Assembly (NCBI GenBank): GCA_000710935.1
Contig: BAYV01000013.1
Span: forward strand, 62,001-126,000
Origin: Iodidimonas nitroreducens
GTDB lineage: Bacteria > Pseudomonadota > Alphaproteobacteria > Sphingomonadales > Rhodothalassiaceae
Length of the DNA: 64,000 bases
Direction of reading: 5' to 3'
Below the pieces are notes generated by a model. It had not been told where the DNA came from, did no database searches, and saw nothing but the letters and a program-made list of their open reading frames with translations. The translations under genes and the position numbers were made by a program. Of this stretch, positions 29,983 through 41,938 are shown piece after piece (the stretch's first letter is position 1; each line of letters begins with the position of its first letter).

Positions 29983-30672
29983 TCAGCGGCGGATGCGGCT
30001 TTTCAGGGCGGCGGCCATCAAAGAGGGCGGTGTTTGGGGGGAGAAATGCGTCAGATATGCCCCCTCGCGGCCCATCAGCATGATATTGGTCGTATGATCA
30101 ATGAGATAGCTGCTATAGGCTTCATCGGTGGTTTTGGAAAAACGCACGGCATAGGCGGTGGCCATCCGCTTGATATCCGGCACCGTGCCGGTGATGCCGG
30201 TGAAGGCGGGGTGAAAGCTTTCAAGATATTGGCCCAGCTTTTCCGGGGTATCGCGCTCGGGATCAAGGGTGACAAAGATAGGCGCGATTTGCGCCGCCAA
30301 TTCAGGGTCATCCTGTTCCAGCGCATAAAGGCTATTGGAAACCGCCAATAATGACATCGGACACACATCGGGGCAAAAGCTGTAGCCAAATACGATCAGC
30401 ATATAGCGGCCGCGAAAATCCTGCGCCGTGACGGGGGCACCATCCACCCCGATGAGGGAAAAAGCCCCCCCCACCGGCGCATCAAGATCGACCTCGCCTT
30501 CAGGATTGGTCGGGTCTTTTGTTTTCAAGGCATCGCCTTGGGCCTTTTGATCTGTTGCGCTTGGATTGGCGGAAAATAGATCTGGCATGGTTTTATAAAC
30601 AATAAAAACAGCCAGAAATGAAATCCCTGCCACCACCAAAGGCAGCAGGGTTTGTTTCCGAAACAGGCTCAC
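29983..30672 (-). CDS. ioxF: IoxF, Sco1/SenC-type copper protein
   Basis: The 229-residue protein is a membrane-anchored Sco1/SenC protein, likely a copper chaperone or thiol reductant for the iodide oxidase. One N-terminal membrane helix (about 8-26) precedes the thioredoxin-like domain. The copper ligands are complete: CPDVCP (Cys 100, Cys 104) and His 193 in IDHTTN. I chose a GTG start at 30672 because it makes a GTGA overlap with the ioxE stop, as at the ioxD-ioxE junction; a TTG at 30684 is the alternative. It is the last gene of the iox block. Confidence 0.9.
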   Translation of the reverse strand: MSLFRKQTLLPLVVAGISFLAVFIVYKTMPDLFSANPSATDQKAQGDALKTKDPTNPEGEVDLDAPVGGAFSLIGVDGAPVTAQDFRGRYMLIVFGYSFCPDVCPMSLLAVSNSLYALEQDDPELAAQIAPIFVTLDPERDTPEKLGQYLESFHPAFTGITGTVPDIKRMATAYAVRFSKTTDEAYSSYLIDHTTNIMLMGREGAYLTHFSPQTPPSLMAAALKSRIRR

Positions 30673-32486
30673 GGTACAATCCAATCCGATACAGGTTCGA
30701 CGCCTTTGCGATTTGTTGCATCGAACTTGACGATATAGGCCCCTTTTGATCCAAAGCGCTGGCCAGAACCCAAGGATAGGCGCGGATGGGGACCGGGATC
30801 AAAACCCACGCCGATATCATGTTCGATTAATTCGATGAGATAGCTGCCATAATAATCGCTGAGCAAATGGCCCATGGCAAAAGAGATGGTTTTCACCGCA
30901 TAATAAGCCTGTAATTGCATGGTCCAATCAGGGATCGGCAATTTTCGGGCCCGCAGCCAGGCGCGAATCCGATAGGCATCGGCATGATAGGCATCGGGTT
31001 TATCATAGGGATAGATGGCTCGCACATGGCCCCATTGGCCTTCGGGAAGTTGGGCTTGCATCGCCGCGATCGAGGCCGAGGGCACATAGATCATGAGATC
31101 GCCGGGGAGCGATGTTTCAGCCAAAGCTTTAGCCGCAGCTTCAGGCGCAGTGCCGGGCCACAGGATAAGGGTTGAGGAGGGATTTTTGCCCGCCACAGCC
31201 GCCTTGATGGCCTTTCTCCATGCCTTTTCTAGGGATTTTTCTGGGGCTTTTCCCGATTTCACCTTCTGGCTTTTGATTTTCTGCTCGGGAGCCCGCTTTT
31301 CCATGGCGCTGGCAAACCGCTCAGCCGGTTTCCGGCCTTCGGCATCCTGATGATAAATCTGCCGGATCGTGCCTTTTTCTGGGGCGTTCTCCAGATTCTG
31401 GCCTAAATGGTCTGCAAGCGCATCGGCTTCCAGCAGCAAGGCACGTGAGAAATAAATTGTGAAGCTATCCGGCCCGGTATTTTCCGATGGTAATTGGGTG
31501 ATGGGCAGGATGCAGGGCATTCTTTTGGCATCACAAAATGCGGCGATGGGGGCGTAATCCCCTTCAACCAAAGCACTGGCAACCAGAAATGCAGGCTGTT
31601 TTTGATAATAGCGCTCCAGTTGTTCGGGCCAGCTTTTCGGATCACCGGTCAGCCGCCAGACAGCAATATCCCAATCGCGATAGGAATCCTGGAATTCGGA
31701 TCGATAATAGGGTGAATAGCCGGGGCGGGCTTTATCGGTATGATAGGATTTTGATTTCCAGTCGGCATAGGCGGTGATCACGCCGGTAAAGGCTTCAGCG
31801 CGTTCCGGGTCCACCGGGCCGGCGACGATGGTGGCCAAATGCAATTTCTCAGGCTCTACGCCCTTGTCATAGCTGGGGTAGGTTTCTTTCAAAAAAGCAT
31901 AAAGATTGGCGACATCGGTATCGCTTAATTCATAGCGCGGCATGGCGGGGTTCAAAGCCCGGCCCACGGGATCAACCCCTTCGCGAATGGCGGCCCCCAG
32001 ATGATCAAGCTCATAAGCCGGGCGCAAGCGGCCACGGCGCGCATCATGAACAAAAAGCGGGCCTTGGGGTTCCTTGTAATATTCTTTGAAGCGTTCATTG
32101 CGCAAAGCACGATCGGCTTTGCGTTCGGTAAACAGATAGCTAGCATTGATCGGGGGCACATAAACGCCGCCCTCGCTCGATCCCATCCCGCTGGGGCGAT
32201 GACAACTGACACAGGTCATTTGCGCACCACTGATCTGGATATCTCCGCCTGTGATGCCGGAAATCACGGAGCCATCAGCACTGATCCCGTCATAATAAAG
32301 GCGCTTGCCAAGGGCGGGGTCGCCTTTCGGTGCGGAGGCGGGGCCTTGGGCATGGACGCCCGAAGCGGTGACGCCACTGAAAACAAGGGCAAGAACAAAA
32401 AAATGAAAGCGGATTTTGGGAAAGCGGAGCCGAGATAAACGAATTGGGAGACCAAACATCAACACTACTCTGACTAAGGGGATCAC
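30669..32486 (-). CDS. ioxE: IoxE, cytochrome c with periplasmic-binding-like domain
   Basis: The 605-residue exported protein begins with a signal peptide (about 28-46, ending VHAQ). A c-type cytochrome domain follows with a single haem site CVSCH (92-96) and a likely axial Met in NPAMPRYELSD. From about residue 210 to the end it resembles a type 1 periplasmic solute-binding protein: LHLATIVAGPVD at the start and SKGAYIVKFD near the end. A Lys-rich stretch (about 385-410) breaks the middle. The start is a GTG at 32486 that overlaps the ioxD stop (GTGA); an ATG at 32459 is possible. It probably carries electrons from the iodide oxidase or transfers them on, which is inference. Confidence 0.85.
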   Translation of the reverse strand: MIPLVRVVLMFGLPIRLSRLRFPKIRFHFFVLALVFSGVTASGVHAQGPASAPKGDPALGKRLYYDGISADGSVISGITGGDIQISGAQMTCVSCHRPSGMGSSEGGVYVPPINASYLFTERKADRALRNERFKEYYKEPQGPLFVHDARRGRLRPAYELDHLGAAIREGVDPVGRALNPAMPRYELSDTDVANLYAFLKETYPSYDKGVEPEKLHLATIVAGPVDPERAEAFTGVITAYADWKSKSYHTDKARPGYSPYYRSEFQDSYRDWDIAVWRLTGDPKSWPEQLERYYQKQPAFLVASALVEGDYAPIAAFCDAKRMPCILPITQLPSENTGPDSFTIYFSRALLLEADALADHLGQNLENAPEKGTIRQIYHQDAEGRKPAERFASAMEKRAPEQKIKSQKVKSGKAPEKSLEKAWRKAIKAAVAGKNPSSTLILWPGTAPEAAAKALAETSLPGDLMIYVPSASIAAMQAQLPEGQWGHVRAIYPYDKPDAYHADAYRIRAWLRARKLPIPDWTMQLQAYYAVKTISFAMGHLLSDYYGSYLIELIEHDIGVGFDPGPHPRLSLGSGQRFGSKGAYIVKFDATNRKGVEPVSDWIVP

Positions 32487-33202
32487 TGATGGGCGGCAGC
32501 TTTGTGCTGCAAAACGCTTTCAAATTCGTTCATCAGGGCAGCCTTGCTCAAAAGCCCATCCAGCCGCACCCAATCTTTCCCCGGTTCGGCCCGCAGATAG
32601 GTATAGGGCCGGTGATACATTTTATTGCCGCTTTCATAAAGGGCATCAAACGCCTTGATCGCCAAACGCACCTCGGCCAAAGAGCCGGTGAGGAAAATCC
32701 AGTTTTCCGGCGCATTATAGCGCTTTGCATAGCTCAAAAGCCGCTCTGGCGTATCATATTCGGGATCGATCGAGATGGAAATGAGGCGTGTTTCGGGATC
32801 GAGGTCCGTCATCGGGGCGATGGATTGCGCAAAACTGGCCGATAAAACCGGGCACACCGTGGCGCAGCTGGTGAAGATGAACTGCAAAGCCACCGGGCCG
32901 GGCTGGGCCAGTATCTGGGCCAGATCATGGGCTTTACCATGCTGATCCACAAGCTGTACGGATGAAACATCATAAGCGCCGATGCTCGCCTTATAATTCC
33001 GACCGGGCTTTGTGGGGCCGTTATACATGTGGAATTTCTGTTCACCATGGCCCATCACATGCTCATTCTGGCCATGCTGGCTATGATCCATCGTGCTATG
33101 ATCAGCTTGGGCGCGCGCCGGAACAGACATAGCAGTAAAACCAAGGGCCATGCAGCCAAGCGCCATGATCTTCGAAAGTGTTTTTGCCGGGGTCTGTTCC
33201 AT
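32483..33202 (-). CDS. ioxD: IoxD, Sco1/SenC-type copper chaperone
   Basis: The 239-residue periplasmic protein has a signal peptide (to about ARAQ, residue 32) and a Sco domain with intact ligands TSCATVCP (Cys 113, Cys 117) and His 197 in KMYHRPY. Between them lies a His/Met-rich stretch just after the signal (about 34-60, including STMDHSQHGQNEHVMGHGEQ), a typical copper-binding tail. AAGGGA lies 8 bases before the ATG. It follows a strong intercistronic hairpin and opens the ioxDEF sub-block. It likely loads copper into IoxA. Confidence 0.9.
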   Translation of the reverse strand: MEQTPAKTLSKIMALGCMALGFTAMSVPARAQADHSTMDHSQHGQNEHVMGHGEQKFHMYNGPTKPGRNYKASIGAYDVSSVQLVDQHGKAHDLAQILAQPGPVALQFIFTSCATVCPVLSASFAQSIAPMTDLDPETRLISISIDPEYDTPERLLSYAKRYNAPENWIFLTGSLAEVRLAIKAFDALYESGNKMYHRPYTYLRAEPGKDWVRLDGLLSKAALMNEFESVLQHKAAAHQ

Positions 33203-33316: not shown

Positions 33317-35251
33317 TCAGTGAACCGACCAGATGGCAACGCCATGATGGAAAGGATCGAACTGATAATAGCGCAGACGCTGTGCAGGATCGTAGCGGAA
33401 TTCGACTTCCACTTCATGCTTGCCCAAGCCATCTTCGGTGACCTGATTGGCAAACTGGGTGAAATCGGTTTGCAGTTCCTGCTGGATGATCACGCCTTTT
33501 TGTCCGGCTGTCATGGCCTGTGCTTCGGCAACATTGGAAGCAAGACCACCCAAACCGGCCATCGTGGCGGCGTCACCCAGAATACCAGCCTGTGTGAAGC
33601 CCCCTTCAGGACGCACAGCCGGGGGAACAACCGCAGGATTGACCGTATTGGGCATCCAGTTGGTGCGCCCAAAGGTGAACCATGGGCCCTGGCCATTCAA
33701 AGGCAGGGTGTTATGGAAGGTATTTTCCCAACCCCGAAGACCTCCGAAATCGACGCTGAAATACCCATGCGGGAAATAATCACCATTATAAAGGGTGACA
33801 TTGAGTGTCGTCCCGCGGGTTGTCCATTCGTCGAAGCGACCTTGTGAGCCGGTGGTGCCGTCATGCCCGGTCAACATCCCATAGATGGTGTTGTTGACAT
33901 AGAACAAGGTGCTGTCGGCGGTGAGATCAGGCGTGACCCCACGTGGCAGTTTATTGCGGTTTTTCCAATCAAAGAACGCTTCTTCGATTTCCTTCACAAG
34001 CAGAGCCGCCGTGCTGGTTTCCGTGCGGCCATTGAAGTTGTATTCCCGCAGGGCTTTCAAGGCCAGCCACATGCGCTTGGCAGGTGCCAGATCGCCAATC
34101 ATCCCGATGGCAGCCAGCTTGGCGGCTTCGCTGGACGAAGGCGCTTCGCCAAAGACATCGATTTCCCATTGCGGAATGGATTTTCCACCCGGTGCCTTCA
34201 GGGCATTTTCAATGGCCTGAATGCGGGATGGATGGACGCGCCATCCCCAATGATAGGTCAGATTCCAAAAGCGCCCGGGGGCCATCTTGAAATCAAACTC
34301 ATAGCGTTCGCCTTCATTCATCGGAAAGAAGGAGCCATCCAGTGCCACTGAGGGCACACCTACGCCACCGCGCAGATTGGGATCATCGAAATACATCACG
34401 AAGGGGGCCCAATCTTCATGACCTCTTTTCACGACATCGACGACATAATTGATGGTCCATTCTTCATCGAGCACATTGCTGGGATCGATGGAGAAAGTAT
34501 CCGAAAGGATGAAATGCCGCCCCCAAACCTGATGAACCGTGACCGAATTGGTTTCGGGATCAACAGATTTGATCTGTTCCGGGCCTTTGTAATTGAGCAA
34601 AGGCATGCCGCTATAGACGCGATTGATCGGGTTTCCTTCCAGAATATCGAGCGCAAACTGGATATCTTCCTGATCAACACGGGTGGCGACACGCTCGCCA
34701 ATCTGGCCCGCTGCATCATCGCCGCGCGGAACTTCACTATCACCGCGACGCGGATCAGTGGGAACGCGCAAACCACCATGGAAGCGGGTTTGGGTTGTGG
34801 CCCATAATTCGCGCCAATTAGTGGCTTCCTTCAGGCGTTTGATCACCCGCGCCAGATCTTCTTCCGGACCACGATCATCAGCCAGAACGCTGACAACGGG
34901 ATCGGGATGAAGATTATAAGGGTTTTCCGGCGTTGAGTTCAGCGTATTGGGAATTTCATTCCCTGCTGAATCGAGCGCATTGCCAAAGATCGTCGGCAAC
35001 AGGTTCGATGGATTGGTGCTATCCGCTCCCAGTGTTTCTGAAGGCGGGAAAGGATGACCCGCGCCCGAAAGCGCTTCGGCCGATCCGGTTTTATAGATCG
35101 TTTTTGTGCCGTCATTGACCACTTCCATTGTGCGATCAGCCGGCAGGGGCTGGAAAGGCGCCCCATCCTGAGCGAATGCCGCGCCGGTTCCCGCCAGCAT
35201 AACTGCCGGCAAAAGAACCTTGGCCATCCGCCTGTCGAGTTTCGTTCTCAT
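33317..35251 (-). CDS. ioxC: IoxC, secreted component of the iodide-oxidising enzyme
   Basis: This 644-residue exported protein matches IoxC by position and size: in iodide-oxidising Alphaproteobacteria, IoxC co-purifies with the multicopper oxidase IoxA. I recognise no common domain. A signal peptide ends near AFAQ (residue 28); the mature protein is Trp/Tyr/Asn-rich with strand-like segments such as GHEDWAPFVMYFDDPNL and FWNLTYHWGWRVHP, and ends FDPFHHGVAIWSVH. GGAG lies 7 bases before the ATG at 35251. An open frame continues far upstream, across ioxB, but its translation is not protein-like. Its role may be structural or in substrate binding. Confidence 0.85.
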   Translation of the reverse strand: MRTKLDRRMAKVLLPAVMLAGTGAAFAQDGAPFQPLPADRTMEVVNDGTKTIYKTGSAEALSGAGHPFPPSETLGADSTNPSNLLPTIFGNALDSAGNEIPNTLNSTPENPYNLHPDPVVSVLADDRGPEEDLARVIKRLKEATNWRELWATTQTRFHGGLRVPTDPRRGDSEVPRGDDAAGQIGERVATRVDQEDIQFALDILEGNPINRVYSGMPLLNYKGPEQIKSVDPETNSVTVHQVWGRHFILSDTFSIDPSNVLDEEWTINYVVDVVKRGHEDWAPFVMYFDDPNLRGGVGVPSVALDGSFFPMNEGERYEFDFKMAPGRFWNLTYHWGWRVHPSRIQAIENALKAPGGKSIPQWEIDVFGEAPSSSEAAKLAAIGMIGDLAPAKRMWLALKALREYNFNGRTETSTAALLVKEIEEAFFDWKNRNKLPRGVTPDLTADSTLFYVNNTIYGMLTGHDGTTGSQGRFDEWTTRGTTLNVTLYNGDYFPHGYFSVDFGGLRGWENTFHNTLPLNGQGPWFTFGRTNWMPNTVNPAVVPPAVRPEGGFTQAGILGDAATMAGLGGLASNVAEAQAMTAGQKGVIIQQELQTDFTQFANQVTEDGLGKHEVEVEFRYDPAQRLRYYQFDPFHHGVAIWSVH

Positions 35252-35294: not shown

Positions 35295-35954
35295 TCAAAG
35301 CGTTGCGCGGTGATTCCACGCATAGGCGCTCTTTCCCGGAAGGGAAGGACCGGCCAATTGTGGAGCAGCAGGCTTTTTGCTGGGCAGCATCCATGAGATG
35401 CGGTGAACGGCATCCTGCGTGGTGATCTTGGCGGGGAAAGTGCCCCAGATCCGTGCATTGCCGGTAGCATTGCCATAGAAAACCAGACGGCCCATGCCGA
35501 CGCTGGCACCACGATTGAAGTGGTACATGCGTTGCGCAAGCATCGCTGGTTCTTCTCCGGCAGCGCGCATGAACATCCAGCCATCCGGGGCATTGAATTC
35601 CCGGGCATGTTCGGCCAAACGCTCGACCGTATCATTGATGGGGTCCACGGTGATCGAGGTGATGAAAACATCACGCCCGACCTTGTCGCCCAATCCTTCC
35701 ACGATCTTGGCAATATGCGCCGTTTGGCTGTGCATCTTGTCATCATCGATCGAGAAGAAATTGACCATGAAAATCTTGTTTTGCATGCGATCTTCATAGA
35801 ACCGCACCGGTTCGCCGGTATGAGACACCGCACGCACATCAGGGAAGCCACAGCGGACATTGAGATCAAGCTGGTGCACCGAGGTGGGTGTCAGGCTCTC
35901 GTTCGGGCCGCATTGTGCGGCGCCGCTTAACAACTGTCGTCTTGTTGTAGACAT
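35295..35954 (-). CDS. ioxB: IoxB, Sco-like protein lacking the copper cysteines
   Basis: The 219-residue protein has the Sco/thioredoxin-like fold but not its catalytic cysteines. Where IoxD has FTSCATVC, IoxB reads FFSIDDDK (66-73), so both Cys are replaced; the third ligand position is retained as His 145 in QRMYHFN. The N-terminus MSTTRRQLLSGAAQCG looks like the start of a Tat signal, but no hydrophobic core follows, so export is doubtful by itself; it might be carried with IoxA. AAAGGA lies 11 bases before the ATG at 35954; an upstream ATG is not needed. It sits between ioxA and ioxC with gaps of 38 and 43 bp. Confidence 0.85.
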   Translation of the reverse strand: MSTTRRQLLSGAAQCGPNESLTPTSVHQLDLNVRCGFPDVRAVSHTGEPVRFYEDRMQNKIFMVNFFSIDDDKMHSQTAHIAKIVEGLGDKVGRDVFITSITVDPINDTVERLAEHAREFNAPDGWMFMRAAGEEPAMLAQRMYHFNRGASVGMGRLVFYGNATGNARIWGTFPAKITTQDAVHRISWMLPSKKPAAPQLAGPSLPGKSAYAWNHRATL

Positions 35955-35992: not shown

Positions 35993-37819
35993 TCAGTCGC
36001 CCTGACCCGGCTCCACAAGATCCCAACGCACCATCATGGCGTGATCCTCATGCACCACATTGTGGCAATGCATGATGTAAGGACCGAGGAAATCGCGCCA
36101 GCGACCGAAGAATTTCACTTCATCGCCCGGTCCGAGTTCCACCACGTCTTTCTTGGTGTCGAGGAAGCTGAAGGGCTCCACCGGCTTGCCATTGACTTCA
36201 AAAATCTGGAATTCTTCCATATGCGTATGCACAGGATGCGCCCAGCTATCGCCGGTATTGCGCCAGGTCCAGATTTCCGCACTGCCTTGCTCGATCTTGG
36301 CATCAGCACGGTTTGGATCCATCAACTCGCCATTGACGGTGAAGAGGCCACTGTCATAGTCGAAGGTCCAGATGCGTTCGCGACGCACTTCGCTGAAATC
36401 GATGGCTGGCTGACGACGCATGAAATCGGGGATCCGCGATGGATCTTCGACATCACCCGCCTGCACGCGGAACTGCATGATCATATCGCCTTCATCGAGC
36501 TGACGGCCGCTTTGACCGGCGCCATCTTCGCGCATGCCCAAACGGTTGACGATGTAGACATTGTCACCGGCATTGAAATTCGAGAAATCGATGATCACGT
36601 CCGAGCGATTGGCCACCCAAAGCTTGAGGGTTTCCGATTCGATCGGTGTTTCACGCAGATTGCCGTCGTTCGACAGGATGATCCAGTTGGTTGCCCTTTG
36701 GGCATTGGGATCGGCACTGTCTGTGGCCAGATGCAGTTCATAGAGTCGGCTTGGGCCGCCATTCAGAATACGGAAGCGATATTTGCGGCGTTTCACATCC
36801 AGATAAGGCTGGATGGTGCGGTTCACCGTCATGGTATCGCCCAGCATCCCAAAGGTTGTGTGCTGGAAGCTTGGCAGATATTCGCCTTCGATATTCTGAA
36901 TATCGGGGGAGAAGAAATCCCAGACCACCTGACCATTTTCATCGAACTGAACGTCATGGATGATGAGGGGGATGTCGTATTCCCCGCTGGGCAGCCGGAA
37001 GGCATCGGGATTGGGATCATTTTCGTTGTCGGAATCTTTCTCGTCGAACAGGAGATAGAAACCGGCATGACCCGCATACACATTGGTGGCCGTGAAATCG
37101 AGGCGATGATCATGATACCACAAGGTGGTCATGCGCTCATCGTCATTCTTACCGGATTGATCGCCCGCCGGGAAGTTTGCGTAATGATGATCCCAGAATT
37201 CGCCGGGATTGAAATAATCCTGGGGGATACCATCCGATTCCGACGCCGTATGGCCGTTATGCAGATGGATTGAAAAGCTGGGAACCGCGAAATTCACGTT
37301 ACCCGTGCCGATTTCCGGATGTTCATTGATGCGACGAACGAAAACAGGCTCGCCATATTTGGCCTTATAGGTCGGCCCCGGTGCGATATTGGTAAAGTTC
37401 GGACCGGTGAAGGTATAATGCCACGATCCCTGATTATAGGGGGGCTGTGGATGATACACCCAGCGCGATTCCTGCAAACGTTCATAATAGAACTTTTGCG
37501 GCGCAAATTTATCGAACAACTGATGCCGTTCGGGATCAGGCGCCATGCCGCCCAATATGGGATCAAGCAGATCAGATTGTGGCACGGATTGCGCAACAGG
37601 CATCCGAAACAGGGGGGCCGTAAAAGGGGTGACTTTAGGGCTTGGTCGGGACACCCATGATGGCCTGAATGTTTGAGGGAAAATAAGCCCGGTTTGTGGG
37701 AAATTACCGGGTGTGCGCTCGATAACATGCTGTTTCGGCGCACTCATTGCATACTTCGACGCGAGGCCCGCACCAGCGGCAGCGGCACCCAGCTTCAAAG
37801 CATCTCGCCTTTTGAACAT
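35993..37819 (-). CDS. ioxA: IoxA, iodide-oxidising multicopper oxidase
   Basis: IoxA oxidises iodide to I2 with oxygen as acceptor, extracellularly or at the envelope. The 608-residue protein has a Tat signal (FKRRDALKLGAAAAGAGLA) and the four multicopper-oxidase copper motifs: HLHNGH (185-190), WYHDH (234-238), HPVHTH (528-533) and HCHNVVHEDHAMM (584-596), giving type 1 ligands Cys 585, His 590 and Met 595. HLHNG instead of the common HxHG is a visible variant. GGAG lies about 9 bases before the ATG. The set of neighbours (three Sco-like proteins, cytochrome, IoxC) is what separates it from laccase or bilirubin oxidase. Confidence 0.9.
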   Translation of the reverse strand: MFKRRDALKLGAAAAGAGLASKYAMSAPKQHVIERTPGNFPQTGLIFPQTFRPSWVSRPSPKVTPFTAPLFRMPVAQSVPQSDLLDPILGGMAPDPERHQLFDKFAPQKFYYERLQESRWVYHPQPPYNQGSWHYTFTGPNFTNIAPGPTYKAKYGEPVFVRRINEHPEIGTGNVNFAVPSFSIHLHNGHTASESDGIPQDYFNPGEFWDHHYANFPAGDQSGKNDDERMTTLWYHDHRLDFTATNVYAGHAGFYLLFDEKDSDNENDPNPDAFRLPSGEYDIPLIIHDVQFDENGQVVWDFFSPDIQNIEGEYLPSFQHTTFGMLGDTMTVNRTIQPYLDVKRRKYRFRILNGGPSRLYELHLATDSADPNAQRATNWIILSNDGNLRETPIESETLKLWVANRSDVIIDFSNFNAGDNVYIVNRLGMREDGAGQSGRQLDEGDMIMQFRVQAGDVEDPSRIPDFMRRQPAIDFSEVRRERIWTFDYDSGLFTVNGELMDPNRADAKIEQGSAEIWTWRNTGDSWAHPVHTHMEEFQIFEVNGKPVEPFSFLDTKKDVVELGPGDEVKFFGRWRDFLGPYIMHCHNVVHEDHAMMVRWDLVEPGQGD

Positions 37820-38445: not shown

Positions 38446-40161
38446 ATGAAGACCATGGAAACGCCTTTGGCTGATCGCGATGAACGCTTGGCGGCCTTGC
38501 TGATGGATGCTGGCCGGATCGAGCATTCAACGATCGAGCGTGCGCGCCTCATTGCTCAGACTACGGGGGATTCTCTCCCTCTTGTCTTGCTGAAACTCGG
38601 CATGATGGCGGAGCGGGATCTGGCGATGGCTTTGGCCCGCTGCCATGGGCTGAAGCTTGTGGAACAAGATGCTTTCCCCGCACAGGCGATCCCGGGCTTA
38701 TCGCTGAGCACCCGCTTCTTGCGCGAAGAGCGTGTTTTGCCCCTTGCCCTCACTGATGATCGCCTTGATCTGGCGATGGCTGATCCCGGGGATGATTTTG
38801 TTCGGCAGTCATTAGCGATGATTGCCGATGTGCCGGTGGTGTTGCATGTGGGGCTGCCTACAGAAATCGAGCAGGCGATTGATCGACTCTATGGCTCGGT
38901 GCAGGCGACCGAAGATCAAATGGATCGCACTCATAATGCTGCTGAAGACGAGGGGTTTGAAACCGATATCGAACGCTTGCGCGATCTGGCCAGCGAAGCG
39001 CCGGTGGTGCGGTTGGTCAGCCGGATGATCGAGGATGCGATCGATTTGCGCGCCTCGGATATTCATCTGGAGCCTTATGAGCAGCGTTTGCGCCTTCGCT
39101 ATCGGGTCGATGGCGTTTTGCAAGACGGTGAAGCGCCACCCTTACGCCTGAAATCGGCCATCGTTTCGCGTCTGAAGATCATGGCCAAGCTCAATATCGC
39201 CGAGCGTCGCCTGCCGCAGGATGGGCGGATCAAGCTGGCGGTTCGCGGCTCTGCCATTGATCTGCGTGTCTCCACCTTGCCGTCTCTTTTTGGTGAAGGC
39301 GTGGTTTTGCGGGTGCTCAATCAGGATCAGTTGAGCCTTGAGTTCGGGGCCTTGGGCATTGGCGGCAAAACCCTTGAGCGGTTGCTGGAAGGCCTGCAGC
39401 GCCCCAATGGTATTTTTCTGGTCACCGGGCCCACGGGTTCGGGAAAAACCACCACCCTTTATGCGGCGCTTTCCCGCTTGAATGAAGCAGGCACCAAGAT
39501 CGTGACCGTGGAAGATCCGGTTGAATATCAGCTTGATGGGGTCAATCAGATACAGGTGAAGCCCGCTATTGGTTTGACCTTTGCCAATGCCTTACGCGCC
39601 ATTTTGCGCCAGGATCCCGATATCATCCTGATCGGTGAAATTCGCGATCTGGAAACAGCGCGGATTGCTGCCCAGGCGGCGCTGACCGGGCATCTGGTGT
39701 TGTCCACTTTGCACACCAATAGCGCTGCGGCTTCGGTTACCCGCTTGATGGATATGGGGCTTGAAAGCTATCTGGTCACCGCCACGCTGAATGGCGTTGT
39801 GGCCCAAAGATTGGTGCGCCGCCTGTGTGATGCGTGCAAAACGCCTTATGCCATCAGCCCGGAGCTTTATGATAAGCTGGGCTTGAAGAAACTGGGGGCG
39901 CTTTTATCTGCCACCCTTTATCAGCCCATGGGTTGTGATCACTGCCATCAAAGCGGCTATCGCGGCCGCACCAGCCTTGTGGAAATTCTGGTGATCGATG
40001 ATCATCTGCGCCGGATTATCCTGAAAGATGGGGATGCATCAGAAGTGCAGCGGGCGGCGCTGGAAGCCGGGATGGTGACCCTTTATGAGGATGGTATGAA
40101 GAAAGCCCTGGCCGGAGAAACGTCGGTCGAAGAAGTGCTCCGCACGGCGCGGGATGGGTGA
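38446..40161 (+). CDS. gspE: Type II secretion ATPase GspE
   Basis: GspE is the hexameric cytoplasmic ATPase that drives the pseudopilus of the type II secretion system. The 571-residue protein has an N-terminal GspE_N/MshEN-like domain (about 10-150), Walker A GPTGSGKT (328-335), the Asp box TVEDPVEYQ, Walker B IILIGEIRD (393-401) and the His box TGHLVLSTLHTN. The zinc-binding tetracysteine is CDAC (461-464) with CDHC (497-500). ATGs at 38446 and 38455 are both possible starts. It opens the plus-strand gsp operon and overlaps gspF if the first ATG of that frame is used. Confidence 0.95.
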   Translation: MKTMETPLADRDERLAALLMDAGRIEHSTIERARLIAQTTGDSLPLVLLKLGMMAERDLAMALARCHGLKLVEQDAFPAQAIPGLSLSTRFLREERVLPLALTDDRLDLAMADPGDDFVRQSLAMIADVPVVLHVGLPTEIEQAIDRLYGSVQATEDQMDRTHNAAEDEGFETDIERLRDLASEAPVVRLVSRMIEDAIDLRASDIHLEPYEQRLRLRYRVDGVLQDGEAPPLRLKSAIVSRLKIMAKLNIAERRLPQDGRIKLAVRGSAIDLRVSTLPSLFGEGVVLRVLNQDQLSLEFGALGIGGKTLERLLEGLQRPNGIFLVTGPTGSGKTTTLYAALSRLNEAGTKIVTVEDPVEYQLDGVNQIQVKPAIGLTFANALRAILRQDPDIILIGEIRDLETARIAAQAALTGHLVLSTLHTNSAAASVTRLMDMGLESYLVTATLNGVVAQRLVRRLCDACKTPYAISPELYDKLGLKKLGALLSATLYQPMGCDHCHQSGYRGRTSLVEILVIDDHLRRIILKDGDASEVQRAALEAGMVTLYEDGMKKALAGETSVEEVLRTARDG

Positions 40162-40165
40162 TTTT

Positions 40166-41425
40166 ATGGCTGTTTTCAGCTATCGCGCCGTGGATCAATC
40201 GGGTCGGCTTGTGGAAGGCACCTTTCATGGGGCGGATCAGGCGGCCCTGATCGCGCATTTGCGGGGGCAGGGCTTGCAGCCGGTGCAGATGACCGATCTC
40301 AGCCGAAAAGATGCCGGGATTTTTTCGGGTGGTCTTTTCTCTCGCGCCGGGCGCCTGGGCTTTTCGCTGGATCAGGCAAAGGCTAAAAAGCTGACATCTG
40401 GCGGTTTGGCGATGATGAGCCGTGAATTGGCCACCCTTCTCGATGCCGGATTGCCATTGGAGCAGGGTCTGCAGATGCTGGCACAGCAGGATGGCGGGCG
40501 CACAGTGGCAGCAAAGGTTGCGGGTGGCTTGCTGGAAAAGGTTCGGTCCGGCGCGTCTTTTGCCGATGCCTTGCAAGATCAAAGTGAGAATTTCCCCGGC
40601 CATTTCATCGGACTTGTGCGCGCGGGCGAGGCGGGCGGCACCCTTGATCGGGTTCTGCTCAAGCTGGCCGATAGTTTGGAGCGGAGCCATGCCCTGGCGC
40701 AGGATATCCGCTCGGCCCTCAATTATCCGATCCTGATTCTGGTGGCTTCGGGAGGGGCGGTTCTGGTCCTGCTTTTGGGGGTGATCCCGGAATTCGAGCC
40801 GCTGTTCAGCAGCGCGGGCAATGCCTTGCCGATGTCGGCGCGGATCGTGATGGGGGCTTCGCGGCTTTTGCAGAAATTCTGGTGGGCTTTGCCGCTGGCG
40901 ATTATCATTTTTTACATTATTATGCGGTTTATTTCGGCGGATGCATCCTTGCGGGCGCGGATTCAGGGGCTATGGCTGGATTTGCCCTTGATCGGCCCTT
41001 TGATGCGGAAAATCGAGGCGGCGCGTTTTTGTGGCACTTTGGGAACCTTGATCGAGAATGGTGTGGATGTGGTGCCGGCCTTGCAGATGAGTGGAAAAAC
41101 CTTATCCAATGCCCGTTTGGTGCGGGCTGTGGAGCAGGTGGTACCGCGCTTGCGCCGGGGTGAGGGTTTGGCCGAACCGCTGGTTGAAGCCGGGGTGCTG
41201 CCCCCCCTTGCGGCGCGCCTCATTCGGGTGGGGGAGCAAAGCGGTCGCCTTGATGTTATGCTTTTGACCACGGCGCGCATCTATGAAGGGGAAATCGGCC
41301 GCGAAACCCGCAAACTCGTTTCGCTGCTGGTGCCGATGGTGACTTTGTTTCTGGGTATTCTTGTGGCGGGGATCATCGGGTCCATCCTATCGGCGATTCT
41401 CACCTCTTATGATTTGCCTTTTTAG
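40166..41425 (+). CDS. gspF: Type II secretion inner-membrane protein GspF
   Basis: GspF is the polytopic inner-membrane platform protein. The 419-residue product starts MAVFSYRAVDQSGRLVEG, typical of GspF, and has two T2SSF domains, each with membrane segments (about 170-195, 215-240, 375-400) and signatures such as MMSRELATLLDAGLPLEQG and RFCGTLGTLIENGVDVVPAL. The ATG at 40166 is preferred because GGGTG lies 5 bases upstream; the frame opens at 40154, inside gspE. It follows gspE by 4 bp. Confidence 0.95.
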   Translation: MAVFSYRAVDQSGRLVEGTFHGADQAALIAHLRGQGLQPVQMTDLSRKDAGIFSGGLFSRAGRLGFSLDQAKAKKLTSGGLAMMSRELATLLDAGLPLEQGLQMLAQQDGGRTVAAKVAGGLLEKVRSGASFADALQDQSENFPGHFIGLVRAGEAGGTLDRVLLKLADSLERSHALAQDIRSALNYPILILVASGGAVLVLLLGVIPEFEPLFSSAGNALPMSARIVMGASRLLQKFWWALPLAIIIFYIIMRFISADASLRARIQGLWLDLPLIGPLMRKIEAARFCGTLGTLIENGVDVVPALQMSGKTLSNARLVRAVEQVVPRLRRGEGLAEPLVEAGVLPPLAARLIRVGEQSGRLDVMLLTTARIYEGEIGRETRKLVSLLVPMVTLFLGILVAGIIGSILSAILTSYDLPF

Positions 41426-41434
41426 GAGATGGGC

Positions 41435-41938
41435 ATGAAACCCCTGTTCATCACCCAAGGCGCGCAGCGGTCTTCCTGTCGGCAGGCGGTTGAGAGCGGC
41501 TTCACCCTGATGGAAATGCTGGTGGTGATGGCGGTGATGGGGATTGTGGCGGCTTTGGCCATGCCGCGTTTTCATCATGCCCTGCCGGGCCTGGATTACA
41601 CCCATGCCGTGCATAATCTGGCCTCCGCCCTGCGGCAAACCCGTGCAGCGGCTATTTCTTCGGGGCAAATGCGCAGTCTGGAACTGGATATCGATGATGC
41701 CGTCTATCGCTATCCGGGCGTTCCCAAAGCCGACATTCCGGCCGGGATCGATATCGATCTTGTGGCCGGGCGCGAAGGGTTGTCCCGTGTCGATCAACGG
41801 GCACGCTTTGATTTTTATCCCGATGGGTCGTCGGCGGGGGGGCGGATTGCTTTGGCTCAAGGGGATCGGCTGTCAATCCTTGCGATCGATTGGTTGACCG
41901 GACGCATCGAGATCAAGGATGACGCCGATGGTTTTTAA
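41435..41938 (+). CDS. gspH: Type II secretion pseudopilin GspH
   Basis: GspH is a minor pseudopilin at the tip of the T2SS pseudopilus. The 167-residue protein carries the prepilin peptidase site VESG-FTLMEMLVVMA (cleavage after Gly 22, with Glu at +5) followed by one hydrophobic helix and a beta-rich domain with FYPDGSSAGGRI near the end, the GspH hallmark. The ATG at 41435 lies 6 bases after AGGAG; the ATG at 41429 touches that site. It lies directly after gspF. Confidence 0.9.
   Translation: MKPLFITQGAQRSSCRQAVESGFTLMEMLVVMAVMGIVAALAMPRFHHALPGLDYTHAVHNLASALRQTRAAAISSGQMRSLELDIDDAVYRYPGVPKADIPAGIDIDLVAGREGLSRVDQRARFDFYPDGSSAGGRIALAQGDRLSILAIDWLTGRIEIKDDADGF

Follow-up and report, generated by a model that had tools for sequence, protein, structure and literature searches.

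The iox cluster of Iodidimonas and its three SCO-type proteins, IoxB, IoxD and IoxF, are already known, and a review presents them together, as homologues of a SCO1/SenC family "known to bind copper", in passages that do not set IoxB apart (PMC9415286). The cluster of Iodidimonas nitroreducens raises the question of what the first of these proteins, which lacks the CxxxC motif, does beside a multicopper oxidase. We addressed this question in a stretch of 64,000 nucleotides of that genome, referred to here as the window, and in related loci from other bacteria.

The iox cluster and its second gene

Open reading frames, Pfam matches and locus comparison define a six-gene iox cluster in the window, in the order A-B-C-D-E-F, entirely on the minus strand and with the multicopper oxidase gene first; the order described in print is the same (PMC9415286). 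IoxA (35993-37819) matches Pfam Cu-oxidase_2, contains four copper motifs and has, by hydropathy, its own Tat signal, MFKRRDALKLGAAAAGAGLAS. IoxC (33317-35251; 644 aa), a subunit of the purified enzyme (PMC9415286), matches no Pfam or NCBIfam profile, even with the threshold relaxed to E 1, and is found wherever a cysteine-less IoxB can be read. Downstream lie ioxD (32483-33202) and ioxF (29983-30684), which encode SCO1/SenC proteins with an intact CxxxC motif and histidine, and, between them, ioxE (30669-32486), which encodes a protein with a cytochrome c domain (Pfam). On the opposite strand next to ioxA, genes of general secretion pathway type (GspE-like, GspF-like and prepilin-like) were recognized by eye (38446-41938); type II secretion genes also adjoin a plasmid locus of Fuscovulum that carries a multicopper oxidase (MCO) and a SCO gene (L027).

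The ioxB gene (35295-35954, minus strand) lies between ioxA and ioxC and encodes 219 residues from its ATG. Its sole Pfam match is SCO1-SenC (PF02630), at 26.7 bits against a cut-off of 22.8, compared with 150.8 bits for IoxF and 64.2 bits for IoxD; two further proteins, P0007 and P0008, score 23.2 and 39.5 bits with the same profile. A degenerate, Tat-like N-terminus (residues 1-36; 35847-35954) is followed by a predicted SCO/thioredoxin-fold domain (residues 37-191; 35382-35846, with the Pfam match at 43-122) and by a C-terminal tail (residues 192-219; 35298-35381; AGP..., ...NHRA) that aligns among Iodidimonadaceae IoxB proteins and in part with that of genome G793.

The CxxxC cysteines are absent from IoxB in three lineages

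The original prediction, made from the letters of the window, held that IoxB has lost both copper/redox cysteines, and this proved correct. The only cysteines of the protein are C15 and C35, and alignments place residues 69-75 (IDDDKMH; 35730-35750) at the CxxxC position of other SCO proteins, with D71 and H75 standing where 15 of 15 CxxxC-bearing partners have cysteine. Nor is the loss peculiar to the window: both cysteines are absent from all nine IoxB proteins in which the motif can be read, which represent three lineages, whereas both cysteines and the histidine are retained by every one of the 29 remaining SCO proteins that were aligned with them. The nine comprise the IoxB of the window, that of its closest named relative I. 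muriae (L005; 89% identical), those of two more Iodidimonadaceae (G411, 61%; G389, 56%), that of G793, and four of a Nitrosomonas type (G564, G1008, G1014 and G1046). Since G793 IoxB contains no cysteine at all, a site rebuilt from cysteines cannot be general. A frameshift restoring the motif was not found; length and motif are identical in I. muriae, and dN/dS between the two genes is 0.063.

These proteins come from searches of several kinds. IoxC matched three of 398 genomes phylum-wide, namely the window's own and two from beyond the class that carry iox clusters (G793 and G564). G564 IoxB matched 36 of the 125 genomes of its family (E ≤ 1e-8), and among these many matches 14 loci were read (L063-L076), three of them cysteine-less (G1008, G1014 and G1046, near G564) and 11 with CxxxC. 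A class-wide search with IoxB matched 10 of 385 genomes; the loci read besides the window's IoxB (L008, L009, L011, L013 and L015) hold CxxxC-bearing SCO proteins, and L010, L012, L014 and L016, translated from the wrong strand, were excluded. Our counts also omit L006/L033, where IoxC is present and the contig begins within IoxB (49 residues, motif invisible), and L067, which is identical to L066; L056, L059, L060 and L061 have CxxxC and stand outside the alignment. Searches of plasmids and of phages with IoxC gave no match, and two scans of viral contigs returned one SCO protein. Rhodobacterales (Roseovarius) iox clusters were sought by 16S, and the signature matched none of 172 genomes; with Pseudosulfitobacter 16S as the query, none of 47 genomes exceeded 86% identity over a long match. 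One Rhodobacterales lead, G164, was dropped, having only a 61-base 16S match at 97% and plasmid matches headed by Azospirillum. The iox clusters sampled include none from Roseovarius. A separate curiosity is L056 (G831, contig 5), in which a single open frame encodes two tandem SCO domains, each with CxxxC.

The ligand histidine is also missing in Iodidimonadaceae

H145 (35520-35522) had been read as the copper ligand, kept in an M-Y-H context, and here our results depart from the original prediction. Three alignments place the canonical ligand position at G153-R156 (GMGR; 35487-35498), which includes no histidine. When SCO proteins encoded beside multicopper oxidases serve as intermediates, hardly any gaps remain between residue 37 and the loop, and the canonical histidine aligns with G153 or M154; profile-profile comparison of IoxB with IoxD puts it on R156. 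H145 lies 8-11 residues upstream, on the helix preceding the loop (136-149 in our model), and is present in five of the nine IoxB proteins. The pairing of M-Y-H with M-Y-H, obtained with MAFFT from IoxB and IoxD only, needs nearby gaps of 10 and 15 columns and was rejected; one of the two alignments that show it also misplaces the CxxxC motif, and other MAFFT runs of IoxB with IoxD/IoxF only give registers in the histidine loop that disagree with one another. By alignment, all three SCO copper ligands are missing in the window's IoxB and its Iodidimonadaceae relatives. In the five IoxB proteins of other lineages the canonical position is uncertain, and a histidine near it in G793 and in the Nitrosomonas type may be the old ligand.

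The predicted structure has an SCO-like core. An AF2 model computed from nine aligned sequences, seven of them SCO paralogues or homologues, has a mean pLDDT of 62 and 70-88 in the core; IoxB sequences alone, the window's and that of I. muriae, gave a pLDDT of 38. Residues 1-28, 150-157, 160-175 and 194-219 are all below 50, a range that covers the N-terminal cysteines, the histidine loop and the tail. With the model as query, Foldseek gave 12 PDB matches at E ≤ 1e-3, every one a Sco-type or Sco-like entry, and the best Z from VIA is 9.2 over 127 residues. The model indicates that IoxB has an SCO-type thioredoxin fold. The window's IoxB is thus an SCO1/SenC protein by profile and predicted fold that lacks the CxxxC, the ligand histidine and the anchor or export signal of the family.

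IoxB is under strong purifying selection

Measured against I. muriae, the window's iox genes have a dN/dS (NG86; approximate, with dS of about 1 to 2) of 0.049 for ioxA, 0.063 for ioxB, 0.109 for ioxC, 0.138 for ioxF, 0.171 for ioxE and 0.180 for ioxD. After ioxA, ioxB is the most constrained gene of the cluster, and it is more constrained than the cysteine-bearing ioxD and ioxF; these encode proteins of the same SCO1/SenC family in the same operon, but they keep CxxxC and the histidine, and their dN/dS exceeds that of ioxB two- to threefold. Third codon positions hold 90 of the 121 differences between the two ioxB genes. ioxB is a working gene under strong purifying selection and not a pseudogene.

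In Iodidimonadaceae the export signal was lost after the cysteines

A Tat-like N-terminus without a hydrophobic core had also been predicted, and hydropathy agrees: the best 12-residue Kyte-Doolittle mean in the window's IoxB is 0.07. Twin arginines occur in all nine IoxB proteins (at residues 5-6 in the window). The four Iodidimonadaceae proteins retain them and lack the core (0.07-0.71), so none of the four has the arginine pair followed by a hydrophobic core that marks a Tat substrate, whereas the five proteins of other lineages, at 1.57-2.23, have complete Tat signals. Six MCO rows were left out of the hydropathy comparison: A_G389, T_L082 and T_L085 (wrong arginine pair or extended ORF) and three from plasmids. 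With no hydrophobic stretch in its residues 1-36, the window's IoxB likewise lacks the membrane anchor or export signal of SCO proteins. In G793 and G564 both IoxA and IoxB carry Tat signals; in Iodidimonadaceae IoxA alone does, in the rows that were correctly read. An in-frame stop lies ten codons upstream of the G411 ioxB start, which rules out a longer signal there. On this distribution, the loss of the signal core is a second loss, later than that of the cysteines. C15 and C35 are conserved in all four Iodidimonadaceae proteins. The Nitrosomonas-type proteins have one linker cysteine (TC[ST]PA), conserved in four of four.

IoxB derives from SCO proteins encoded beside multicopper oxidases

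In profile comparisons, IoxB is closest to MCO-linked SCO proteins (E 1.5e-30), ahead of IoxD (4.4e-17) and IoxF (7e-6). These relatives are of two kinds. The first are SCO-cytochrome c fusions on plasmids (L026-L029), encoded after the MCO gene, with one small gene intervening in L028 and L029; their SCO domain is 31-38% identical to IoxB, but they keep CxxxC and the histidine and have a C-terminal cytochrome c domain (Pfam for L026 only). The second, from the family to which G564 belongs (Nitrosomonas-like L066-L076), are SCO proteins with a Tat signal, 36-40% identical to G564 IoxB; they, and a protein of G882 (L054, with KR for RR), share with IoxB the MCO-SCO gene order and the type of N-terminal signal, but retain CxxxC and NHTGM, and none of the eight such loci retrieved has ioxC. 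In the SCO tree, IoxB falls into one group with both MCO-linked kinds (94/79); support for a single IoxB branch within it is weak, at 64/19 with all sequences and 89/89 with fewer. These comparisons establish, at the level of sequence, that the ancestors of IoxB were SCO proteins that had CxxxC, were exported through Tat and had their genes next to those of related multicopper oxidases.

The cysteine loss goes together with ioxC. In the MCO tree, the nine oxidases that are accompanied by ioxC are gathered in a single clade (100/99), and every cysteine-less SCO protein that we read adjoins an oxidase of this clade. ioxC stands beside the cysteine-less IoxB in nine of nine loci (truncated by the end of the stretch in L087) and beside a CxxxC-bearing SCO protein in none of 12 (L078-L085 and L026-L029; in L078 only about 1.4 kb past the SCO gene is covered). 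The coincidence of the two characters probably reflects one evolutionary event rather than twenty-one independent observations.

We also observed a large gene for an animal-type haem peroxidase near nine of the 12 MCO-SCO pairs that keep CxxxC (seven of the eight Tat-SCO loci, L078-L085, and two of the four plasmid loci, L026 and L027); RTX repeats were confirmed with Pfam in L080 only. No such gene lies near ioxC in any of nine loci, the window included. MCO, SCO protein and secreted peroxidase form an apparent module, and it looks as if ioxC takes the peroxidase's place in iox clusters.

A-B-C loci in Nitrosomonas-like bacteria

Within the stretches examined, the four Nitrosomonas-like loci have no ortholog-level match to IoxD, IoxE or IoxF, which identifies A-B-C as the common core; an IoxD query finds only the ioxB gene in them. 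In G564, a single-contig genome, ioxA, ioxB and ioxC lie together, no separate homologue of IoxD, IoxE or IoxF occurs in the 17 kb around them, and ioxE is only weakly matched elsewhere in the genome (E 2.3e-4). The same genome has three ammonia monooxygenase (PF02461) matches. PF02461 was found in two of the seven genomes tried and in none of the drafts G1008, G1014 and G1046, so that for these three "Nitrosomonas-like" is inferred. Published work leaves it open whether the ammonia oxidisers that have homologues of ioxA and ioxC carry the complete operon (PMC12335899), a point to which the G564 locus is relevant. In L051, L077 and L086, a CusB/HlyD-type and then an AcrB-type efflux gene follow ioxA-B-C in place of ioxD-E-F; L087 ends before this point.

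What IoxB may do

Because the cysteine loss is general and selection on ioxB is almost as tight as on ioxA, the best reading is that IoxB is unable to take up copper as SCO proteins do and serves as a partner or scaffold. Of the original proposal, this part is supported, and the retained copper histidine is not. IoxB may also travel with folded IoxA, and in Iodidimonadaceae its N-terminus is in keeping with that. We consider it somewhat better than an even chance that IoxB is an SCO-domain protein without a copper/redox site, kept as a metal-free assembly partner of IoxA and probably of IoxC. Such a protein would have given up copper carriage and SCO-type thiol chemistry and would bind folded apo-IoxA in a metal-free manner, either to keep it loadable by other proteins or to present it to IoxC; copper might come from IoxD/IoxF in six-gene clusters and from other periplasmic donors in A-B-C loci. 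Iodidimonadaceae IoxB has no usable signal peptide, and its meeting with IoxA, if any, must therefore be cytoplasmic; it might then cross the membrane on the Tat signal of IoxA or act before export. In the other lineages, IoxB would be exported through its own Tat signal.

Several observations weigh against this partner role. The passages of PMC9415286 on the purified enzyme report IoxA and IoxC and do not mention IoxB, which is hence no proven stable subunit. Linker cysteines are conserved within lineages and the loop past the last long helix retains histidine and methionine (and is rich in both in G793), which leaves room for another metal site, and G793 and the Nitrosomonas type may keep the old ligand near its canonical place. 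To these are added the weak branch support for IoxB, the co-occurrence with ioxC as a probably single event, and the low mean pLDDT of the model.

The closest precedent is Arabidopsis HCC2, a SCO homologue that likewise has neither the CxxxC cysteines nor the copper histidine and that persists next to an intact paralogue, HCC1, just as IoxB persists next to IoxD and IoxF (PMC3971200). The absence of all three copper ligands is shared by the window's IoxB and its three Iodidimonadaceae relatives, a resemblance in kind. HCC2 differs from IoxB in being mitochondrial, in acting in the UV-B stress response, in belonging to no oxidase operon and in keeping five other cysteines, where G793 IoxB has none. 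A looser parallel is offered by the cutFOG operon of Rhodobacter capsulatus, whose accessory proteins CutF and CutG, like IoxB, share a locus with a multicopper oxidase, and in which oxidase activity did not change significantly when the Cu motifs of CutG were mutated (PMC8456105); unlike IoxB, neither is a SCO protein, and CutG is a CopG homologue.

It is possible, although we would not expect it, that Iodidimonadaceae IoxB is a cytoplasmic chaperone for IoxA, akin to Tat-proofreading proteins and never exported. The missing core after the twin arginines in all four proteins, the full Tat signal of IoxA and the upstream stop in G411 are in keeping with this idea; the retention of the arginine pair in the same four proteins after the core was lost is not. 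The complete Tat signals of the five other IoxB proteins also speak against it, and make the periplasm the ancestral place of action.

That IoxB donates copper, or zinc, from a relocated site made of C15/C35 and/or the histidine and methionine of the 143-156 loop appears unlikely. Such a site could draw on C15, C35 and H145, conserved throughout the four Iodidimonadaceae, on the single linker cysteine and loop histidine of the four Nitrosomonas-type proteins and on the His/Met-rich loop of G793, and both metals have been reported in purified IOX (PMC9415286). No candidate position is common to the three lineages, however, given that G793 lacks cysteine and H145 is not universal, and the model is too uncertain around the N-terminal cysteines for their geometry to be judged. 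Within a single lineage such a site is still conceivable.

We regard it as highly improbable that IoxB is a relic in the course of being lost that survives by chance. Both metal cysteines are gone, and in Iodidimonadaceae the signal core as well, but the low dN/dS and the predominance of third-position differences point the other way, the six-gene order is intact in the window, L005, L030 and L031, and IoxB is present in all nine IoxA-IoxC loci in which its place can be read. Although the window's genome is a draft of 108 contigs, an assembly or gene-calling error can be dismissed as the source of the cysteine-less reading, which is already refuted by the same class of loss in the separately assembled L005, G411, G389, G793, G564, G1008, G1014 and G1046.

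The metal-free partner role can be extended into a history, which we offer as a speculative and rather doubtful one: a copper chaperone would have become a structural partner as its multicopper oxidase recruited IoxC and turned into an iodide oxidase, and Iodidimonas would now export an IoxA-IoxB complex through Tat, with IoxB's own signal lost and copper added later by IoxD/IoxF. Were this history true, the Nitrosomonas-like A-B-C loci would be minimal iodide oxidases.

IoxB stands apart from IoxD and IoxF, yet recurs with IoxA and IoxC in every lineage sampled. The number of SCO copies is a poor count of copper donors and calls for caution, and the maturation of iodide oxidase becomes testable gene by gene.
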